Shown: positions 34,492 through 46,696 of the stretch, one piece after another
How the letters are laid out: each line of letters begins with the position of its first letter
Numbering within the stretch: position 1 is the stretch's first letter
NCBI RefSeq assembly: GCF_938074695.1
Contig: NZ_CALJEM010000020.1
Span: 62,001 to 126,000, forward strand
Length of the DNA: 64,000 bases
Reading direction: 5' to 3'
From: an uncultured Thermosynechococcus sp.
Lineage (GTDB): Bacteria > Cyanobacteriota > Cyanobacteriia > Thermosynechococcales > Thermosynechococcaceae
Made by a program: the position numbers and the translations under genes
Notes under the pieces: generated by a model
Seen by the model: only the letters and a program-made list of their open reading frames with translations
The model's database searches: none
Told to the model about the DNA's origin: nothing

Positions 34492-34989
34492 TTACCGCGT
34501 TTTTAGGCTGTGGAGTACCTGCTCAATATCCACGATAAAGATAGGGGGTAAGTCTTGATCCCCTGGACTCCTGACCATCAGGGAACTGACGTTGTGAATG
34601 CTCCCCCAGTGGAGATAGTGACTGGGAATGGGATGAATGGCATCCTGTGGAATTCGCTCAATGACCGGGGGGGCTGTGAGGGGCAGGCCAAGCCATTCTT
34701 GCTCCAATCGGGGCTGGAGAATCAGCAAAAATTGGAGCTTCTGCGTTTCTGAGGTGGCGAGAGGATCATCAAAGAGACAGCGGCCAATATCAATCACTAA
34801 AATTTCGCGATTCTCATAGGTCACCAAGCCAACCCCCCGCTGCTGTGGATCACCATGAATAGGAGGTAAGGGAATCACCCGATAGGCCTGTGCCATGGGT
34901 ACAGCAAACTGCTCTTGACGTACGGTAAATGTCAGGAACTGCTCTAAGACAATGGGTTGGTTTTGACGGCGGCGGCGGCTTTTAAGCAT
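34492..34989 (-). CDS. CheW-like scaffold protein
   Basis: FLTFTVRQEQFAVPMAQAYRVIPLP...ILVIDIGRCLF; start overlaps the pixL stop region by 8 nt. Confidence 0.75.
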   Translation of the reverse strand: MLKSRRRRQNQPIVLEQFLTFTVRQEQFAVPMAQAYRVIPLPPIHGDPQQRGVGLVTYENREILVIDIGRCLFDDPLATSETQKLQFLLILQPRLEQEWLGLPLTAPPVIERIPQDAIHPIPSHYLHWGSIHNVSSLMVRSPGDQDLPPIFIVDIEQVLHSLKTR

Positions 34990-37735
34990 GGCGGATCAAC
35001 TGAGCAAGGGTGGCCAAAAGGTCACTTTCGCGGAAGGGTTTGCTAAAGTAGGCGGCTGCCCCTAAACGTTCTGCAAGCTGACGATGTTTTTGGCCTGTGC
35101 GCGAGGTCAGCATCATTACGGGGGTGTTTTGGCACTGGGGAATGCGGCGAATTTGAGTCAGGACACCAAACCCATCGAGGCGAGGCATTTCAATGTCGCA
35201 GATAAGGGCGTTGACGTGTAGCCCCCCTTGCAGTTTATCAATGGCCTCTTGACCATCTTTGGCCTGCTCAACCCGATAGCCGGCTTTTTCGAGGGTATTG
35301 GCAAGGAAACGGCGCACGTTAACTGAATCGTCAACCACAAGGACGGTGTCTTGGCTGGGGGTAACAGGGGGAGCTGCAGGAGCGCGGGAAGGTTCCTGTG
35401 CTAACCAATCAAAGAGGGCAAAGGGGTCTAATAGAGGGACAATGCGACCATTCCCCAAAATTGTGCAGCCACTAAAGCCCTTGGGGAGGGCTAATTCTCC
35501 TTCGACCTGGCGAATGGTGACTTCCTGCTCGCTCCAATAGCGATCAACTCGCAGGGCGAGGGCACTGTCCCCTTGACTGACAATCATCAACGTTGGTTGG
35601 TTAATCGCCGGTGCTCCCTCCATTTCCATAGGACAATAGGGACGCTGAAAGTGAAAAATTTGGGTCAGGTCAACTAAAGGAACGAGATAGCTTTCCCAGT
35701 CAATTAGAGTGGAGCCAAGGGTTTCAATGGGGGGGTAGCGATCGGCCAACACCATTTCTTCAATGTCTTCGGTGGGCACGGCCAAGAGCATACCAGCCGC
35801 TTCCACTAGGAGTGCTCGTATCATTGAGAGGGTATAAGGGATGGCAATCGTAAATTCTGTCCCTTGACCGGGGGTACTGTGGATTTGAATGTTGCCGCGA
35901 ATTTGCCGTAGATTGGTGCGCACAATATCCATTCCCACGCCACGCCCAGAGAGACTAGTCACCTGTGAAGCGGTTGAGAAGCCCGGCTCAAAAATCAGTT
36001 GCCAGAGGTCGCGATCGCTGGCTGTTTCTAACCAGTCCCGTGCTAAGCCCAATCGCCGTGCCGTTTGGCGAATTTTCTCTGGATTGAGACCTCGACCATC
36101 ATCCGCCACAGTGATGACGGTTTGATTGCCGCGATAGGCCGCCTTCAGGGTAATGGTTCCCACTGCGGGTTTACCAAGGGCTTGACGTTCTTCGGTTGGT
36201 TCAATCCCATGATCAAAAGCATTGCGGACAAGGTGCAACAGGGGATCCGCCAGCACACTCAACACAGTACGGTCAATGAGAATATGACTGCCCTCGATGA
36301 CTAAGTTGACCTTTTTGCCATGCTCGCGGCTTAACTCCCTAATCAGTCGAGGATAGCGGTTGGCCAAATCCGCAAAGGGGCGCATCCGCACTTGGGTAAA
36401 GCAAGCTTGCAGTTGCTTGGCAGTGCGGTTTAGATCGCGGCTGCTGCGTTCGGTATCCCCTAGGCTCAATTCCAAATCGCTGGTGATTTCCTGCACTTGG
36501 ACAATGGTTTCCATCACTTCCTGGGAAAGCAGATGCACGTCGGTGTAGCGATCGAATTCAAGAACATCGAACCCATGCTGACTTTGGGGATTGAAGTGAT
36601 GGGGGGCACTGACACGGTCATACTCTGTGCGTAGGCGAAAGTTGGCTCGCTCAAGGGCGCGCACTTTTTCCTTGAGAGCTGCCAGCAGGTTGTGGAGCCG
36701 TTCCCGTTGCAAATCCAAACCATTACACTCAATGAGTAACTCCCCCATCAGATCACTGAGTTGATCCAACTGATGCCCCGGCACCCGCACGGTCATTTCC
36801 TTGGGTTCTGGGGTTTGGGGCTGGGGAGCCAAGGGGGTTGGCTCAGCCTCTGGGGCGGAGGTCAATAAATCCTGAAAGGAGAAAGATTCAATGTCAGCAC
36901 CGGCAAAGTCCTCGACCCCTAGTTCTTGATTCAGGTCTGCCGGCGGTAAATCAATAATGGTTTGCTCCTCGTCACCGGTTTCAGGGGTTTCCAAGCGCGT
37001 GGGCAGAGCCTCCAGTTGACCGGTGATCACGAGGGCTTGGCAGCGGCGCCATTGCTGGATAATGTGGGCAGCGGCTTGGCTCACATCACAGTTGGGTTGT
37101 TGCAGATAGGCACTGACGGAGGCACAGAATTCAGCAAATTGAGGCAGCTCGAGCATTTGCCCCAGGCCTTCCAGTTCTTGGGCAGCGATCGCCAGCTCCT
37201 CCTTGAGGCAAGGCTGTCCGGGGGTTTGCAGCACCGTCTCCAGTCGTTGCAAGCAGGCCTCCACCTCTGTTTCAAAGAGCATGACCCGCATCTGCTGGCC
37301 ATCATCGCCGCTGAGCAGCGCCAAATCATCCTCCGCCGTGGGATCCCCTAGCCGTCCCTGCAACTCATTCAAAAGCGGCTCCACTTGGGTGCGCCACCAA
37401 CCCTCATTGGGTTCAACCCCTTGGCGATTGAGGGTAATCATTACTTGCAGTTGATCCACTGCCCGAAGCAGCAGATGTTGCACCTCCCCATCTTCGCAGG
37501 GGCGCGCTTTCAAAACCTTGAAGAAATCCTCAAGGCGATGCGCCAGTTCACTGAGGGACATAAAGCCCATCATGGCTGCGCCCCCTTTGATAGAGTGAGC
37601 CGCCCGCAGCACGCTATCCATCACTGCCGGCTGGTGAGACAATTGCAGTATTCCTGCTTCGATGGTTTGCAGGTAGTCCTGAGCTTCCTCGAGAAACTGG
37701 AGGCGGATGGCTTCCTCGGCACTGGGTTCGGGCAT
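34982..37735 (-). CDS. pixL: Hybrid CheA-type histidine kinase (Hpt-HATPase-CheW-REC), PixL-like
   Basis: Hpt RAAHSIKGGAAMMGF; HLVRNAFDHGIEPTEER; SGRGVGMDIVRTNL; C-terminal REC VLVVDDSVNVRRFL. Confidence 0.92.
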   Translation of the reverse strand: MPEPSAEEAIRLQFLEEAQDYLQTIEAGILQLSHQPAVMDSVLRAAHSIKGGAAMMGFMSLSELAHRLEDFFKVLKARPCEDGEVQHLLLRAVDQLQVMITLNRQGVEPNEGWWRTQVEPLLNELQGRLGDPTAEDDLALLSGDDGQQMRVMLFETEVEACLQRLETVLQTPGQPCLKEELAIAAQELEGLGQMLELPQFAEFCASVSAYLQQPNCDVSQAAAHIIQQWRRCQALVITGQLEALPTRLETPETGDEEQTIIDLPPADLNQELGVEDFAGADIESFSFQDLLTSAPEAEPTPLAPQPQTPEPKEMTVRVPGHQLDQLSDLMGELLIECNGLDLQRERLHNLLAALKEKVRALERANFRLRTEYDRVSAPHHFNPQSQHGFDVLEFDRYTDVHLLSQEVMETIVQVQEITSDLELSLGDTERSSRDLNRTAKQLQACFTQVRMRPFADLANRYPRLIRELSREHGKKVNLVIEGSHILIDRTVLSVLADPLLHLVRNAFDHGIEPTEERQALGKPAVGTITLKAAYRGNQTVITVADDGRGLNPEKIRQTARRLGLARDWLETASDRDLWQLIFEPGFSTASQVTSLSGRGVGMDIVRTNLRQIRGNIQIHSTPGQGTEFTIAIPYTLSMIRALLVEAAGMLLAVPTEDIEEMVLADRYPPIETLGSTLIDWESYLVPLVDLTQIFHFQRPYCPMEMEGAPAINQPTLMIVSQGDSALALRVDRYWSEQEVTIRQVEGELALPKGFSGCTILGNGRIVPLLDPFALFDWLAQEPSRAPAAPPVTPSQDTVLVVDDSVNVRRFLANTLEKAGYRVEQAKDGQEAIDKLQGGLHVNALICDIEMPRLDGFGVLTQIRRIPQCQNTPVMMLTSRTGQKHRQLAERLGAAAYFSKPFRESDLLATLAQLIRHA

Positions 37736-37737
37736 GG

Positions 37738-40551
37738 TTATCCCTCAGGAGTCACCTTAAAGATGTTGACCGAGTTTTGTAGTTCCTGAGCCATGTCCAC
37801 TGTGGCTTGCAGAGACTCAGAAATCTGCTTGGACGTAGCAGACATGCCCTCGGAGACCTTGGCAAAGTCTTTCATGAGTGTATTGACGGTGTTGGAGGTG
37901 CGGGCTTGGGAGACAGTGGCTTGGGAAATGGACTGCACCAGTTCGTCAATGTGCTGCGACACTTGCACAATTTCTTCGAGGTTCTGCTTGGTTACCTCCA
38001 CAAGGCGCGTGCCTTCAACCACCTGAGCTGTACCGATTTCCATGGCACTCACTACCTCGTGGGTCTCCTGCTGAATGGTTTCCACGATTTGCTCAATTTC
38101 ACGAGTCGCGGCTGCCGATCGCGCCGCTAGTTCACCCACCTCTTCGGCAACCACAGCAAAGCCTCGCCCCTCTTCACCGGCACGAGCCGCCTCAATACTG
38201 GCATTAATGGCCAAGAGGTTCGTTTGCAGGGCAATTTGGTTAATTAGGGAAATCACTTTTGAAATCTGCTGCGAGGATTCGCCCAATCGCTTCACTTTTT
38301 TAGCGGTTTCAGCCACAGTTTCCCGCAGATGGAGAATACTATCTACAGTGGCATCCATTGTTTCACCGCTGGCGAGGGCACGTTCGGCGGCTTTACGCGC
38401 CACTTCTGCGGCTTCGTTGGCACTATTGGCCACGGATTCAATAGAAACCGACATCGCCTCAACGGCCTCCAGCATCCGATTCACTTTCTTGGCTTGCCGC
38501 AGGGATTCTTCCGCCAGCCCCGTCATGGCTGTCTCATCTGCTAAGAGGGCAGTGTTGACTCTTTCCGTTGTTGCTTTTACCTGGATAACCACCTCCCGCA
38601 GACTTTCAATGAGGGAGTTGAAAATGTCGGCAACGGTACCAATTTCATCGGCGGTGATGTCGGCGCGCACCGTCAAATCCCCTTTCGAGGCAGCTTCCAC
38701 TTCCGTGAGCAGGTTAATCAACTGCATTTGGATGCGTTCAGTGCGTTGCTGTTGCTCTTGGGCCAGGCGTTCCGCTTCTTTTTGAGCCGCAGTCGTTTGC
38801 TCAAAGAGCTTATTGCGCTCCAGCACCAGTCCTCCTTGGTTGGCCAACTGGAGAAAGGCATCAATTTCTGACTGTTGCCACTGGCGCGGCTCACTGCACT
38901 GATGGGCAATTAAAAGCGCGACCAGTTTTTTCTCTACTAGCACGGGAACGACGAGATTGGCTCGCACCTTTAGGGGGGCGAGTTGTTTGAGGTGGCACTC
39001 CGTTAGACCGGCATTCAAAATATCTGGGGTGGCTTGGACGCGCCCTTTGGTGTAGGCGTCAACCCAATTTTGCCGGAAGCAGGGGTCATCAATGACTTTC
39101 TCTAGAGCCTTTGGCCAACCCTCGGCGACCGATTCAGCCACCACGCGGCCCACAAAGTTTTCATTAAACTCGTAGAAAATGACGCGATCGCACCCCAAAA
39201 GATGGCGACCCTCGTTAACGAGATTATCAAGAATCTGCCGGCGATCGCTCTGCTGGGTTAGGCGGAAGAGACTATCGCGCAATTGATGGGCGCGCTGGGC
39301 AGAGAGGTGAGCTTCTGTCAGGGATTGTTCTAACTGCTCAGCCATCTGGTTAATCGTGCGGCTGAGAGTAGCTAACTCATCATCCCCTGCCACCGGCAGG
39401 CGGGTTTGTAGATCTCCTTCACCGATTCTCGTCACTGCCTTAGTAGCTCCCAAGAGGGGTTGAATTGCGCGATCGCTAAGATAGATTGCGATTGCTCCGG
39501 CAACAACAGCTGCGACAATAACCCCTGATAACAGTGCCCAAGTCAGGTTTTGCAGCGGCTTGAGGGCGTAGGCTTGATCTGTACCAAGAATGATTAAGGC
39601 AAACGGCTGTGAAACACTTTTGTAGCTGAGAATCTGGGACTCACCATCGAAGCGGCGTCGCTCTATCAATGCACTAGCTGGCTTATTTTCCCTTTGCTGA
39701 GCTAACTTGGGAAAAATCTCTTCTAGAGGCTTTCCATTTAATTCTGGAATTGATGCTGTAAAAATCGTTCCCTCAGGTGTCACGAGGTAAAAACTCTGTT
39801 GTCGGTTGCGAGCGTAGACTTTCAGAAATTGCTGAACACTACCTTTCGGTACCCTCAACCGCAGCACCGCTATAATTTGTTTGCTCTGGGGATTAATCAG
39901 TGGCACCGCCAAAAACATGCCTAAGGGGCGATCTGGTAGCGAGAGGGTTGGTTCAATCGTTAAAACTACCCCCCGCGTTTGGATCGCGAGCTTAAAGTAC
40001 TCTTGATTTTGAAGAATATTGTTCGGAAGGCGATTTCCTGCTGAGGATTGAGCGATAATCGTTCCTTGGCCATTATTGGCAATAATTGCTGCACTGTCAT
40101 AGGCGACATAGGCATCAAGAAACTGATCCAAGACCGCTTGCAATTGGGCGCGATCGCGCCGCTGGATCTCACTGCTGTAGCGATTATTCAAGACAGATGC
40201 CAAAACTCGCGCATCCCCTCGCCGATCGCGCAGATAGTTATCAAACTGAAGCGCTGCACTACTGACTTCCTGCTGCTGAAGTTGCAAGACTTGCTCCATC
40301 AATTGCCGACGCGCCACTTGATTCGCCGCCAAGCCCACGGCAATCATAGGCAGGGTTGCAAGGGCAACTGCACTGGTAATCAGTTTCGGACGTAGCCCCC
40401 ACAATTTGCGGCGTGGAGGAGGTGGCGACAAGGGTTGTTCAGGGGATTTGCCATTGGTTGTTGCTTTTTTCTCCTCTACGGGAGGCAGTTGGTAGTTCAA
40501 TACCGAAGGGGGCAAAGGCGGCAGATCAATTGGCGGTTTAGCAGTAGTCAT
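37738..40551 (-). CDS. pixJ: Methyl-accepting chemotaxis photoreceptor, PixJ-like (Cache-like, HAMP, DXCF GAF, HAMP, MA signalling domain)
   Basis: GAF with DPCF (Cys codon 39079-39081) and ECHL (Cys codon 38995-38997), 28 residues apart; MCP hairpin [31 protein letters not shown]. Confidence 0.92.
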
Positions 40552-40584: not shown

Positions 40585-41088
40585 CTAGCGAACACAATTG
40601 GCCCAGCAATGCTCGGCGATCGCCTCTCCATCGAGGATATAGAAGATTCCTTCCTCCAGACGACAACAGCCCTTTACATAGGGAACCAGCGCTGCACTCA
40701 TTGTACCCACAGGCGATTGAATCAAACTCTCAGAAAGACGAGCAACACCGCCCACTTGGGAGAGCGCCAGTGCCAAGTGTCCCTTTGAGGTTTGCAGTAC
40801 AACAATCGTGAGGAGTGAACTTTCCTGCAGCGGATCGAGATTCAGCAAAAGGGCTAAGTCAAACACCCAAACAACCCGGTTGCGAAAGTTCAGTAGTCCC
40901 ATGACCACCGCAGGCATATTGGGAATCACCGTCAGCTGTTGCGGCGAAATCACTAACACCTGCCGAATCTCCCCCATTGGCAGCAGAGCCGTCAATTCTC
41001 GGTGAAGGATCAAGCGCAGGTAGGGGACATTTTGCCGCTGATCTTGTCTGCGCTCACTCTCTTGCCAAAGTCCTGCTTCTGCCATCAT
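40585..41088 (-). CDS. pixI: CheW-like protein, PixI-like
   Basis: LRLILHRELTALLPMGEIRQVLVISPQQLTVIPNMPAVVMGLLNFRNRVVWVFDLALLL. Confidence 0.87.
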   Translation of the reverse strand: MMAEAGLWQESERRQDQRQNVPYLRLILHRELTALLPMGEIRQVLVISPQQLTVIPNMPAVVMGLLNFRNRVVWVFDLALLLNLDPLQESSLLTIVVLQTSKGHLALALSQVGGVARLSESLIQSPVGTMSAALVPYVKGCCRLEEGIFYILDGEAIAEHCWANCVR

Positions 41089-41450
41089 GAGATCACCACC
41101 GACTTCACGGCTCGTAGCAAATCTTCACGATTAAAGGGCTTGGTGACATAGGCATCTGCTCCTTGTTTCATTGCCCACAGGCGGTCTAATTCTTGGTTTT
41201 TAGAGCTACAGACCACGACCGGTAGTTTTTCCGTTTCCGGATTTTTCTTGAGCGCACGGCACAGTTCAAAGCCACTCATCTCCGGCATTACCACATCGGT
41301 AACCACCACATCGGGTTTGTGTTGGCTGACCTTTTCCAGCGCTTCCTTTGCCCCCAGTGCCTCAATGACCGTGTAGCCGGCTTCCTTGAGGAATGAACTG
41401 ATGAGAGTCATTTCCGAGGGCACATCTTCCACAACTAAAACCTTCGTCAT
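41085..41450 (-). CDS. pixH: CheY-like single-domain response regulator, PixH-like
   Basis: TKVLVVEDVPSEMTLIS...PDVVVTDVVMPEMSG...DAYVTKPFNREDL. Confidence 0.9.
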   Translation of the reverse strand: MTKVLVVEDVPSEMTLISSFLKEAGYTVIEALGAKEALEKVSQHKPDVVVTDVVMPEMSGFELCRALKKNPETEKLPVVVCSSKNQELDRLWAMKQGADAYVTKPFNREDLLRAVKSVVIS

Positions 41451-41511: not shown

Positions 41512-42759
41512 CTAGCTCAAATAGCGAAAGACCATTTTGAGCAGCGCCTCTTGGGTAAACGGTTTCGTCATGTAGTCCGTCGCCCCCACAAGGCGTGCTC
41601 TATCGCGATCAATGAGTCCTGTGTTACCCGTCACCATAATGATGGGTACTGACTTAAAGCGTTCATGGTTGCGAATAACTTTACAAAACTTATAACCGTC
41701 AATATTGGGCATCCCCACATCCAGCAGGATGAGATCTGGGTTGAGACGCATCACCTCCATGAGGGCTTTCACAGAATCATTGAGGGCAATCACTTCAAAG
41801 GCATCATCCGCCAAAAACCGCTTAATTTCATTGAGCATGGCCGGACTGTCATCAATACAGACAATCCGATAGGTGCGGTTGGGCACTTTGGAAGTGAAGA
41901 AGCCACTGCCTAAATCACCACTTTCCTCTGCCACTGCGGGCGCAGTTTCCTGCCACAAACTGGTATCAAAACTGGGCAGCAAATCAAAGGGGTGTTGCGG
42001 CTCCCGAACGACTACGGCTCCCTTCTCAATTAACGGCAAAAGGCTACGCACCAAGGTAATTTCATTTTGGTTGAGAAGCACTGCCAAATGGCGAAAGCTA
42101 AAACCCCGTAGCATAGACCCCAGGCGTTGCTGCTGTTCTGGGGTTAAATTGAGTTGAGCACTCCTAAAGAAGTACGGGCGCTGGAAAGGAGAAACAATTT
42201 TGTGGCCAAGGCTCAGCCATTGCTGAATTTGCGACTTACACTGCTGAATGAGTCGGCTGGGGTCAAAGCGATTGACAATCGGCACCTCCACATAAGGCAC
42301 TAACTGGTGATGACCACTTTTGAGATATAAAAACGACTCTAGGACTTCAACGATCAGCCCCTCCACCAACTGGCTAAACTGCTCTGGGGTAATGATGTGC
42401 TGAGTAAGCAACCAGCACAGACTCTCATACTCATAGATGGGGGTTGGGGTATTGGCCTGTTCCCATCGCTGTTGTACTTGGACACGCAACTCGCGATTGA
42501 GGCTAGGAACCGTATAGCTCAGTTGCCGAAGATGGCGCTCAAAGCGATCGCCCGGCTCAATCGTGTGGGTAGCATAAATCAACTTCCCCTGAGCAAAGTA
42601 GAGGAACCACTGTTGCTGTTGAACACTAACCTTGAAACACCCTGTCCCTCTCGAAGTGCTAAGTTGCTGAAGCAATGACTCAGGGTGAAGTGTTTCTACC
42701 AATTGCGGTGTTCCCCCGGCACTGAAACCGCGATCTGATGTCATCATATCAACCTCCAA
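41512..42759 (-). CDS. pixG: PatA/PixG-type response regulator (PATAN-like N-terminus plus REC)
   Basis: N-terminal GTGCFKVSVQQQQWFLYFAQGKLIYA; C-terminal REC RIVCIDDSPAML...DLILLDVGMPNIDGY...TDYMTKPF. Confidence 0.88.
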   Translation of the reverse strand: MEVDMMTSDRGFSAGGTPQLVETLHPESLLQQLSTSRGTGCFKVSVQQQQWFLYFAQGKLIYATHTIEPGDRFERHLRQLSYTVPSLNRELRVQVQQRWEQANTPTPIYEYESLCWLLTQHIITPEQFSQLVEGLIVEVLESFLYLKSGHHQLVPYVEVPIVNRFDPSRLIQQCKSQIQQWLSLGHKIVSPFQRPYFFRSAQLNLTPEQQQRLGSMLRGFSFRHLAVLLNQNEITLVRSLLPLIEKGAVVVREPQHPFDLLPSFDTSLWQETAPAVAEESGDLGSGFFTSKVPNRTYRIVCIDDSPAMLNEIKRFLADDAFEVIALNDSVKALMEVMRLNPDLILLDVGMPNIDGYKFCKVIRNHERFKSVPIIMVTGNTGLIDRDRARLVGATDYMTKPFTQEALLKMVFRYLS

Positions 42760-45049: not shown

Positions 45050-45796
45050 ATGACCTCTCTGCTTGAAGAAAAACTGCGGGCAGCGTTTCCCCCAGAACAG
45101 GCACATTTGCTGGCGGAAGTCATCCATGAAGCCTACAACGACTTGGTGAAAGCCAGAGACTTCAGCGAGCTGAAGTCCATCGTTGGTGAACTGGCTCAAG
45201 CCCAAAAGCGCACCGAAGAACGGGTTGACCGACTAGCCCTTGCTGTCGAAGAACTCGCTCAAGCCCAGAAACGCACCGAAGAACGAGTTGACCGACTAGC
45301 CCTTGCTGTCGAAGAACTCGCTCAAGCCCAGAAACGCACCGAAGAACGAGTTGACCAACTGGCTGCGGCGCAGGAGCGGACCGAACGCGCTGTGAGGCAA
45401 CTGGCTCGCCAAGTGGGCGGACTCAGTGAAGCCCTTGGTGGCTCCCTCGAAGACCTCGCTTTGGAAGTGGTGCCCGAGATCCTTGAGTATCGCTGGGGCA
45501 TGGAAATCGAATTCTGTGAGCGGGATACACTGCCCCTCCGCAACGGAGAGTATGAGTTTGACTTAGTGATTCGTGGTCAAGTCGAGAGACGACCAGTACT
45601 GGTACTCGGCGAAGTCAAAAGCAACATCACCGAATCAGAGGTGGAGCGATTTTTGAATCTGGTGGCTCAAGTAACAGCGACTGAGGAAATTCGCCCTCTG
45701 TTTTTTGGCTATCGCGTTGAACGAGCTGCCAAGGAGTTGATTCGTGAGCGGGGAGCCGTGATGGTCACCACAAGGGGCAAATACTTTCCTGAGTGA
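45050..45796 (+). CDS. Coiled-coil protein with C-terminal PD-(D/E)XK-like domain (DUF3782-like), copy 1
   Basis: Heptad repeats [30 protein letters not shown]...[10 protein letters not shown] (D...ExK). Confidence 0.8.
   Translation: MTSLLEEKLRAAFPPEQAHLLAEVIHEAYNDLVKARDFSELKSIVGELAQAQKRTEERVDRLALAVEELAQAQKRTEERVDRLALAVEELAQAQKRTEERVDQLAAAQERTERAVRQLARQVGGLSEALGGSLEDLALEVVPEILEYRWGMEIEFCERDTLPLRNGEYEFDLVIRGQVERRPVLVLGEVKSNITESEVERFLNLVAQVTATEEIRPLFFGYRVERAAKELIRERGAVMVTTRGKYFPE
45188..45376 (+). repeat. 63-bp (21-aa) tandem repeat within copy 1
   Basis: CACCGAAGAACG recurs with exact 63-bp spacing (45211, 45274, 45337). Confidence 0.9.
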
Positions 45797-45928
45797 ATAG
45801 GGTATCCATGAGGCTTCTGAGGTTGGAGGAGCTTTCCTGAGAAAATCTGTGAAAACCAAGGAGGCATTGTTTAGTCGTTAGAATGTAGAGTACAGCCGCA
45901 ATTCACCACTCTAAACGTTCTAAACGTA

Positions 45929-46696
45929 ATGACCTCTGTCCTCGAAGAAAAACTGCGGGCGGCGTTTCCTCCCGAACAAGCGCACCTATTGGCGGAAGTG
46001 ATCCGCGAGGCCTATGATGATTTGGTCAAGGCCAAGGACTTCAACGAGCTAAAGTCAATTGTGGCGGATTTGGCTCAAGCTCAGAAGCGCACCGAAGAAC
46101 GAGTAGATCAACTGACGGTGACCGTTGCAGAACTAGCTGAGGCTCAGAAGCGCACCGAAGAACGAGTCGCAGAACTTGCCCAAGCCCAAAAACGCACTGA
46201 AGAACGAGTCGAAGAACTGGCGGCAGCACAAAAGCGCACCGAAGAACGAGTAGATCAACTGGCCGCGGCGCAAGAGCGCACAGAACGAGCGGTGAGACAA
46301 CTCGCACGCCAAGTGGGCGGCCTCAGTGAAGCCTTGGGTGGGTCGCTGGAAGACCTTGCGCTGGAAGTGGTACCCGAAATTCTAGAGTATCGCTGGGGCA
46401 TGGAAATTGAATTTTGTGACCGAGACACCCTACCTCTGCGCAATGGAGAGTATGAATTTGATTTAGTCATCCGTGGCCAAATTCATGGAGAGCCACTTCT
46501 GGTGCTGGGGGAAGTCAAAAGCAATATCACCGAATCAGAGGTGGAGCGGTTTTTGAATCTGGTGGCTCAAGTGACAGCAACTGAGGAAATTCACCCCTTG
46601 TTTTTTGGCTATCGCGTTGAGCGTGCAGCCAAGGAGTTGATTCGTGAGCGGGGAGCCGTGATGGTGACTACAAGGGGTAAGTACTTCCCTGAGTGA
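45929..46696 (+). CDS. Tandem paralogue of the coiled-coil/PD-(D/E)XK-like protein, copy 2
   Basis: Near-identical N- and C-terminal regions to copy 1; different heptad-repeat number. Confidence 0.8.
46067..46289 (+). repeat. 14/21-aa heptad tandem repeats (AQKRTEERV units) within copy 2
   Basis: AQKRTEERV occurs four times plus a degenerate AQERTERAV. Confidence 0.88.

Follow-up and report, generated by a model that had tools for sequence, protein, structure and literature searches.

The minus-strand gene at positions 37738 to 40551 of the window, i.e., the whole 64,000-nucleotide stretch of Thermosynechococcus DNA that was analyzed, very probably encodes the phototaxis receptor PixJ within a complete pixGHIJL-cheW operon, and we hold this identity, the domain anatomy, and the light-switch mechanism described below with high confidence. 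The open reading frame, whose strand the initial annotation had not given, begins with ATG and specifies 937 residues in the order TM1–periplasmic dCache–TM2–HAMP–DXCF GAF (C491/C519)–HAMP–MCP. All coordinates given for the receptor and its operon refer to the minus strand. Hydropathy analysis placed TM1 at residues 57 to 75 (40327 to 40383) and TM2 at residues ~340 to 358 (39478 to 39534); the two enclose about 265 residues, which include the periplasmic double Cache region (residues 79 to 335; 39547 to 40317), recognized by Pfam, AlphaFold, and Foldseek. Beyond TM2, Pfam assigned HAMP1 to residues 361 to 409 (39325 to 39471), a GAF domain to residues 436 to 575, within a cyanobacteriochrome GAF region that, together with the PDB match, spans residues 430 to 590 (38782 to 39264), and the signaling domain MCPsignal to residues 717 to 899 (37855 to 38403; 145.6 bits). 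In the interval between the GAF and the signaling domain, a second Pfam HAMP stretch marks HAMP2, with approximate boundaries at residues ~611 to 662 (38566 to 38721); as its 19-residue signature lies at residue 624, the GAF constitutes a cassette flanked by two HAMP domains. NCBIfam equivalog models all scored far below their cutoffs. Ahead of TM1, residues 9 to 24 carry a short proline-rich motif, LPxSVLN, which is kept in PixJ of Thermosynechococcus and of two related genera (L125, L126, and L128 to L131), even in the Cache-less L126; it was found in 7 of the 81 MCPs collected and is absent from all others.

The protein is 72% identical to full-length TePixJ (L021), aligned over residues 1 to 937, and the GAF of L021 is in turn 100% identical to PDB entry 3vv4 (TePixJ) over 160 residues. 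By sequence, the window gene is thus a direct ortholog of TePixJ, which goes beyond mere likeness. A close relative, from a Thermosynechococcus metagenome-assembled genome, shows 90% identity across the whole protein and the same operon; PixJ proteins of ten genomes of the genus are 57 to 91% identical, and in a tree of the MCP domain the window protein stands beside L128, the TePixJ operon locus, in a five-row set with a support of 100. Published TePixJ has 940 residues and the cysteine C494 (PMC6955287), whereas the cysteine pair of L021 falls at 491/519 when counted from its first ATG; an annotated start three codons upstream of that ATG accounts for the published numbering.

The initial annotation had described a PixJ-type receptor with a dual-cysteine DXCF GAF, and the best phmmer match of this GAF in the PDB is indeed the solved TePixJ GAF, 3vv4 (E value of 3.5e-65). 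Its residue numbers proved exact: DPCF (C491) and ECHL (C519) are separated by precisely 28 residues, so the canonical Cys followed by His and the second Cys within DXCF that characterize DXCF cyanobacteriochromes are both present. In the alignment with TePixJ, C491 (39079 to 39081), the second cysteine, corresponds to C494, and C519 (38995 to 38997), the canonical bilin cysteine, to C522; D489, C491, F492, C519, H520, and Q523 are invariant. A chance match of the two-cysteine spacing is ruled out by 65% identity to the solved TePixJ GAF. The TePixJ GAF remains photoactive in crystalline form (PMC6955287), and by orthology the GAF encoded in the window would bind bilin covalently and switch between blue- and green-absorbing states.

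The genomic setting agrees with this assignment. Open reading frames and Pfam matches define the complete operon pixG-pixH-pixI-pixJ-pixL-cheW, with all genes on one strand and in an order that recurs among relatives across Cyanobacteria. It comprises pixG (41512 to 42759), which encodes a DUF4388/PATAN-type domain and a CheY receiver and whose position matches that in related operons, pixH (CheY-type receiver; 41085 to 41450), pixI (CheW; 40585 to 41088), pixJ, pixL (34982 to 37735), and a second CheW-like gene at the operon end (34492 to 34989), which is kept in relatives. The pixL gene starts 2 bases past the pixJ stop and encodes a hybrid CheA with Hpt, dimerization, ATPase, CheW, and receiver domains. 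With MCP output, a cyanobacteriochrome GAF, and a location between pixI and pixL, the window gene belongs to the PixJ class. The genome also contains a ferredoxin-bilin reductase (PcyA-family) gene and secretion/pilus-type ATPases. In the 2.13-Mb assembly (~91% complete), the window PixJ is the only full MCP and the only dCache_1 protein found. The only other MCP-family match found in this genome, L002 (G000:C22:23091-23507), is a soluble 389-residue protein with a weak MCP signaling match of 37.8 bits. No PilJ-type MCP was found in the ~91% complete assembly; congeners have additional MCP genes, and a PilJ-type gene may sit in an assembly gap. Elsewhere in the window, at 45050 to 46696 on the plus strand, a tandem pair of paralogous genes encodes proteins of 248 and 255 residues with in-frame repeats of 21 or 14 residues (63-bp or 42-bp units) that match by up to 95%, as in one 21-residue unit; the repeats precede a conserved C-terminal domain, and their type and number vary between the two copies.

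The region between the two transmembrane segments had been read as Cache-like, and it is in fact a predicted double Cache domain. Pfam dCache_1 matches residues 83 to 314 with 49.3 bits against a gathering score of 45. AlphaFold2 was used to model residues 50 to 365 with 13 orthologs, which yielded a pLDDT of 83.8 and a pTM of 0.75, and the best fold matches of the model in the PDB are the dCache domains of chemoreceptors. Specifically, Foldseek ranked TlpA (3.6e-14), Mlp24, PctA (TM score normalized to the target of at most 0.79), Tlp3, and TlpC at the top, with E values between 1e-14 and 1e-10 for PctA, TlpA, Mlp24, and Tlp3. Both these matches and the predicted secondary structure point to a long N-terminal helix that bears two stacked PAS-like modules. 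When the PDB was searched by sequence alone with the Cache of 13 close orthologs, only marginal matches were obtained (E value of 0.003); a profile of 43 cyanobacterial members of this Cache family retrieved PctA as the best sequence match with an E value of 7.7e-13. Pfam detects dCache_1 in 13 of 13 orthologs, TePixJ included, and the domain is kept in all 11 congeners examined, the window included. Between the window protein and TePixJ, identity amounts to 79% in the membrane-distal half of the Cache, 65% in the GAF, and 39% in the membrane-proximal half, which argues for stronger constraint on the distal module.

As to what this domain might bind, the amino-acid motif of PctA, some residues of which are named in PMC10104139, was projected by alignment onto the 43-member cyanobacterial Cache family. 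PctA residues R126/W128/Y129/Y144/D146/D173 read Q/Y/F/T/S/R in the window PixJ; the motif is not kept, and assignment to the universal amino-acid sensors (dCache_1AA) was rejected. The amine sensors (dCache_1AM) have the terminal Asp in common with the amino-acid motif (PMC10104139), and this class was rejected as well, the position equivalent to D173 being an Arg (R233) in the window protein and in 35 of the 43 members. A second Arg (R231), two residues earlier, is present in 37 of the 43 (R231-L-R233; 39853 to 39861). For the purine sensors (dCache_1PU), motif variants include YKWFN (PMC11245519); in the sequence alignment, the W position, equivalent to PctA W128, is Tyr in 39 of the 43 family members. 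Alternate residues of a strand share one orientation, so R231 and R233 may both point into the predicted pocket, and the pair suggests an anionic ligand. Chemotaxis of a cyanobacterium to CO2 and bicarbonate was reportedly described by Malin and Walsby in 1985 (as cited in PMC7690835), and bicarbonate is a ligand candidate for that reason. The weakest step of the explanation, for which we consider the chances evenly balanced, is a role of the Cache as a functional sensor of a ligand, probably a small anion.

The combination of domains was then placed in the context of the phylum. Of 386 cyanobacterial genomes sampled, 125 had matches to a profile of the Cache-HAMP-GAF region (E value of ≤1e-20); among the matches listed, 39, in 35 genomes, cover the Cache and extend through the GAF within one protein. 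For a panel of variants, 81 MCPs were collected from 60 fetched loci and the window by similarity to the query, so the following counts are not population frequencies: 26 combine the Cache with a dual-Cys GAF, 13 have the Cache and a GAF devoid of the bilin cysteine pattern, 12 have the Cache and no GAF, and 20 have a dual-Cys GAF and no TePixJ-like Cache. Some receptors without a TePixJ-like Cache possess loops of 284 to 347 residues with other or undetected sensor domains. Among Cache receptors, Pfam recognized dCache_1 in 20 of 25 whose GAF has both cysteines and in 19 of 25 without a bilin-competent GAF, and it did so in none of 5 short-loop receptors; by hydropathy, the periplasmic loop measures 244 to 282 residues in Cache receptors and 24 to 38 in short-loop receptors. 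At many pix-type loci a second MCP follows directly behind the Cache-GAF MCP (L078, L079, L080, L083, L085, L086, L101, and L103), with a periplasmic region of 286 to 347 residues that the TePixJ Cache profile misses; among 12 scanned receptors with long non-TePixJ periplasmic regions, two have sCache_3_3 and one has Cache_3-Cache_2. In the pixJ slot of intact pix operons, the receptors L084, L087, L088, L091, L097, and L098 retain Cache and MCP, yet neither bilin cysteine remains in their GAF (DPYF/NGYI and similar), and they are apparently light-blind "photoreceptors."

The MCP-domain tree (334 columns, quick method, with many weakly supported forks) implies at least 9 changes for the light label and 16 for the Cache label. 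Within a set of 13 rows made up of Cache receptors akin to that of the window (support of 86), members have a dual-Cys GAF (L073), a Cys-less GAF (L084, L087, L088, and L091), or no GAF (L112 and L118 to L120), the Cache being present throughout. In the window's own eight-row clade (support of 100), the Cache has been lost from L107 and L126, whose dual-Cys GAFs number six and two, respectively. Two separable inputs on one stalk are suggested as the simplest reading of these variants, and as the Cache outlives the light sensor among them, it can be argued to have a role of its own. Conversely, these Cache-less relatives in the same slot and Synechocystis-type PixJ1, which supports phototaxis with two transmembrane segments, two GAFs, and an MCP (PMC5812497), indicate that light signaling does not require the Cache.

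Integrating these observations, the cytoplasmic DXCF GAF would sense light, by orthology to TePixJ, with bilin bound at C519 and C491 attaching reversibly as the chromophore converts between blue- and green-absorbing states. The periplasmic double Cache is carried by the same HAMP-GAF-HAMP-MCP stalk, and the two inputs would meet at the MCP hairpin, which would control the CheA PixL through the CheW PixI; PixL would then act on PixG/PixH and thereby bias type IV pilus motility. Control of PixL and output via PixG/PixH to type IV pili have their basis in work on TePixJ and Synechocystis (PMC5812497; PMC7690835), from which we infer the same steps for the window species. Modulation by the Cache of the kinase that the GAF controls is presumed by extension. 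Integration of light and a ligand in one receptor is a plausible and reasonable reading, strengthened by the comparative data. A separate Cache input is favored by the higher identity of the distal Cache half than of the GAF (79% versus 65%), by the slot relatives with a Cache and a Cys-less GAF (13) or no GAF (12), and by the status of the window PixJ as the sole dCache_1 protein found in its genome. In its full form, the proposal is tentative: TePixJ-type PixJ may be a true two-input receptor whose Arg-lined double Cache senses a small anion, bicarbonate being an obvious candidate for a phototroph, and combines it at the HAMP-GAF-HAMP stalk with the blue/green light signal to set pilus-driven movement, one input having been repeatedly kept and the other dropped in the same operon slot across Cyanobacteria.

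The most serious alternative, possible though doubtful, is that PixJ descended from a chemoreceptor and retains its Cache as a relic or purely structural spacer, and that only light matters in Thermosynechococcus. Its loss in Synechocystis-like and Synechococcus-like PixJ (loops of 24 to 38 residues), accompanied by GAF amplification, marks the Cache as dispensable, conservation of its membrane-proximal half is poor (39% identity to TePixJ), and the known amino-acid motif is absent. However, in the comparison with TePixJ the distal, ligand-binding half is conserved above the GAF, its aromatic and Arg positions persist among 43 diverse receptors, some of them light-blind, and one would expect a relic to drift or vanish within the genus, yet the domain persists in every congener examined. 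In a second, improbable alternative, the Cache is a functional input that responds to ions, the energy/pH state, or a periplasmic binding protein and not to a small organic ligand; some periplasmic receptor domains are engaged via partner proteins, and the Cache has no known small-molecule motif, but no binding-protein gene is found within the window's pix operon, and the conserved pocket-type residues belong to the membrane-distal module, which is the small-ligand site of most known dCache domains. A non-photoactive GAF, as in the 13 related Cache receptors that lack the bilin cysteine pattern, is very improbable for a protein that has both cysteines, shares all six invariant residues with the photoactive TePixJ GAF (PMC6955287), and comes from a genome with a PcyA-family gene.

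Should the Cache be active, as the two-input reading proposes, phototaxis in these cyanobacteria would be a decision based jointly on light and chemistry, and half of the input would escape experiments confined to the GAF. TePixJ is among the structurally best-known cyanobacteriochromes, and the structural work found concerns the isolated GAF. The natural series in one operon slot (Cache and light, Cache only, light only) makes the two-input question directly testable. Our literature search found no paper linking PixJ with the term "Cache domain"; the one paper found that mentions cyanobacteriochromes together with Cache is a review of c-di-GMP. The likeliest earlier description of the architecture is the 2003 article by Wuichet and Zhulin (Trends Microbiol 11:200-203), which reportedly deals with the sensory domains of cyanobacterial chemoreceptors.

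Compared with known systems, the window PixJ shares with TePixJ (PDB 3vv4, 4fof, 2m7u, and 6p58, all of the GAF) the operon, the dCache, HAMP, GAF, and MCP domains, and both cysteines, and it differs only by ordinary species-level divergence and by a start codon three residues later than in the published 940-residue protein. The novelty implied for the pairing of a Cache with a DXCF GAF therefore did not hold, and a new fusion was rejected: TePixJ itself has the same dCache_1, and the pairing occurs widely among Cyanobacteria. There is little novelty in the window PixJ, since it is directly orthologous to a crystallized, widely studied receptor and shows a domain arrangement common in this phylum. 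The Cache had looked unexpected because the TePixJ study draws only TM, HAMP, GAF, and MCP and its text does not contain the word Cache (PMC6955287). With the dCache_1 chemoreceptors PctA, TlpA, Mlp24, and Tlp3, the window PixJ has the predicted periplasmic fold in common. The Cache-HAMP-MCP receptors of cyanobacterial pix operons (L112 to L122 and L124) occupy the same operon slot with the same MCP and a related Cache, but lack the GAF cassette of the window PixJ and are light-blind as judged from their sequences. Synechocystis PixJ1/TaxD1, finally, has the role in the pix/tax1 operon, the MCP output, and the DXCF GAF(s) in common with the window PixJ; as the initial annotation had noted, it is described without a named periplasmic domain (PMC5812497), and L106, which matches its layout, has a loop of 28 residues where the window PixJ has a dCache.
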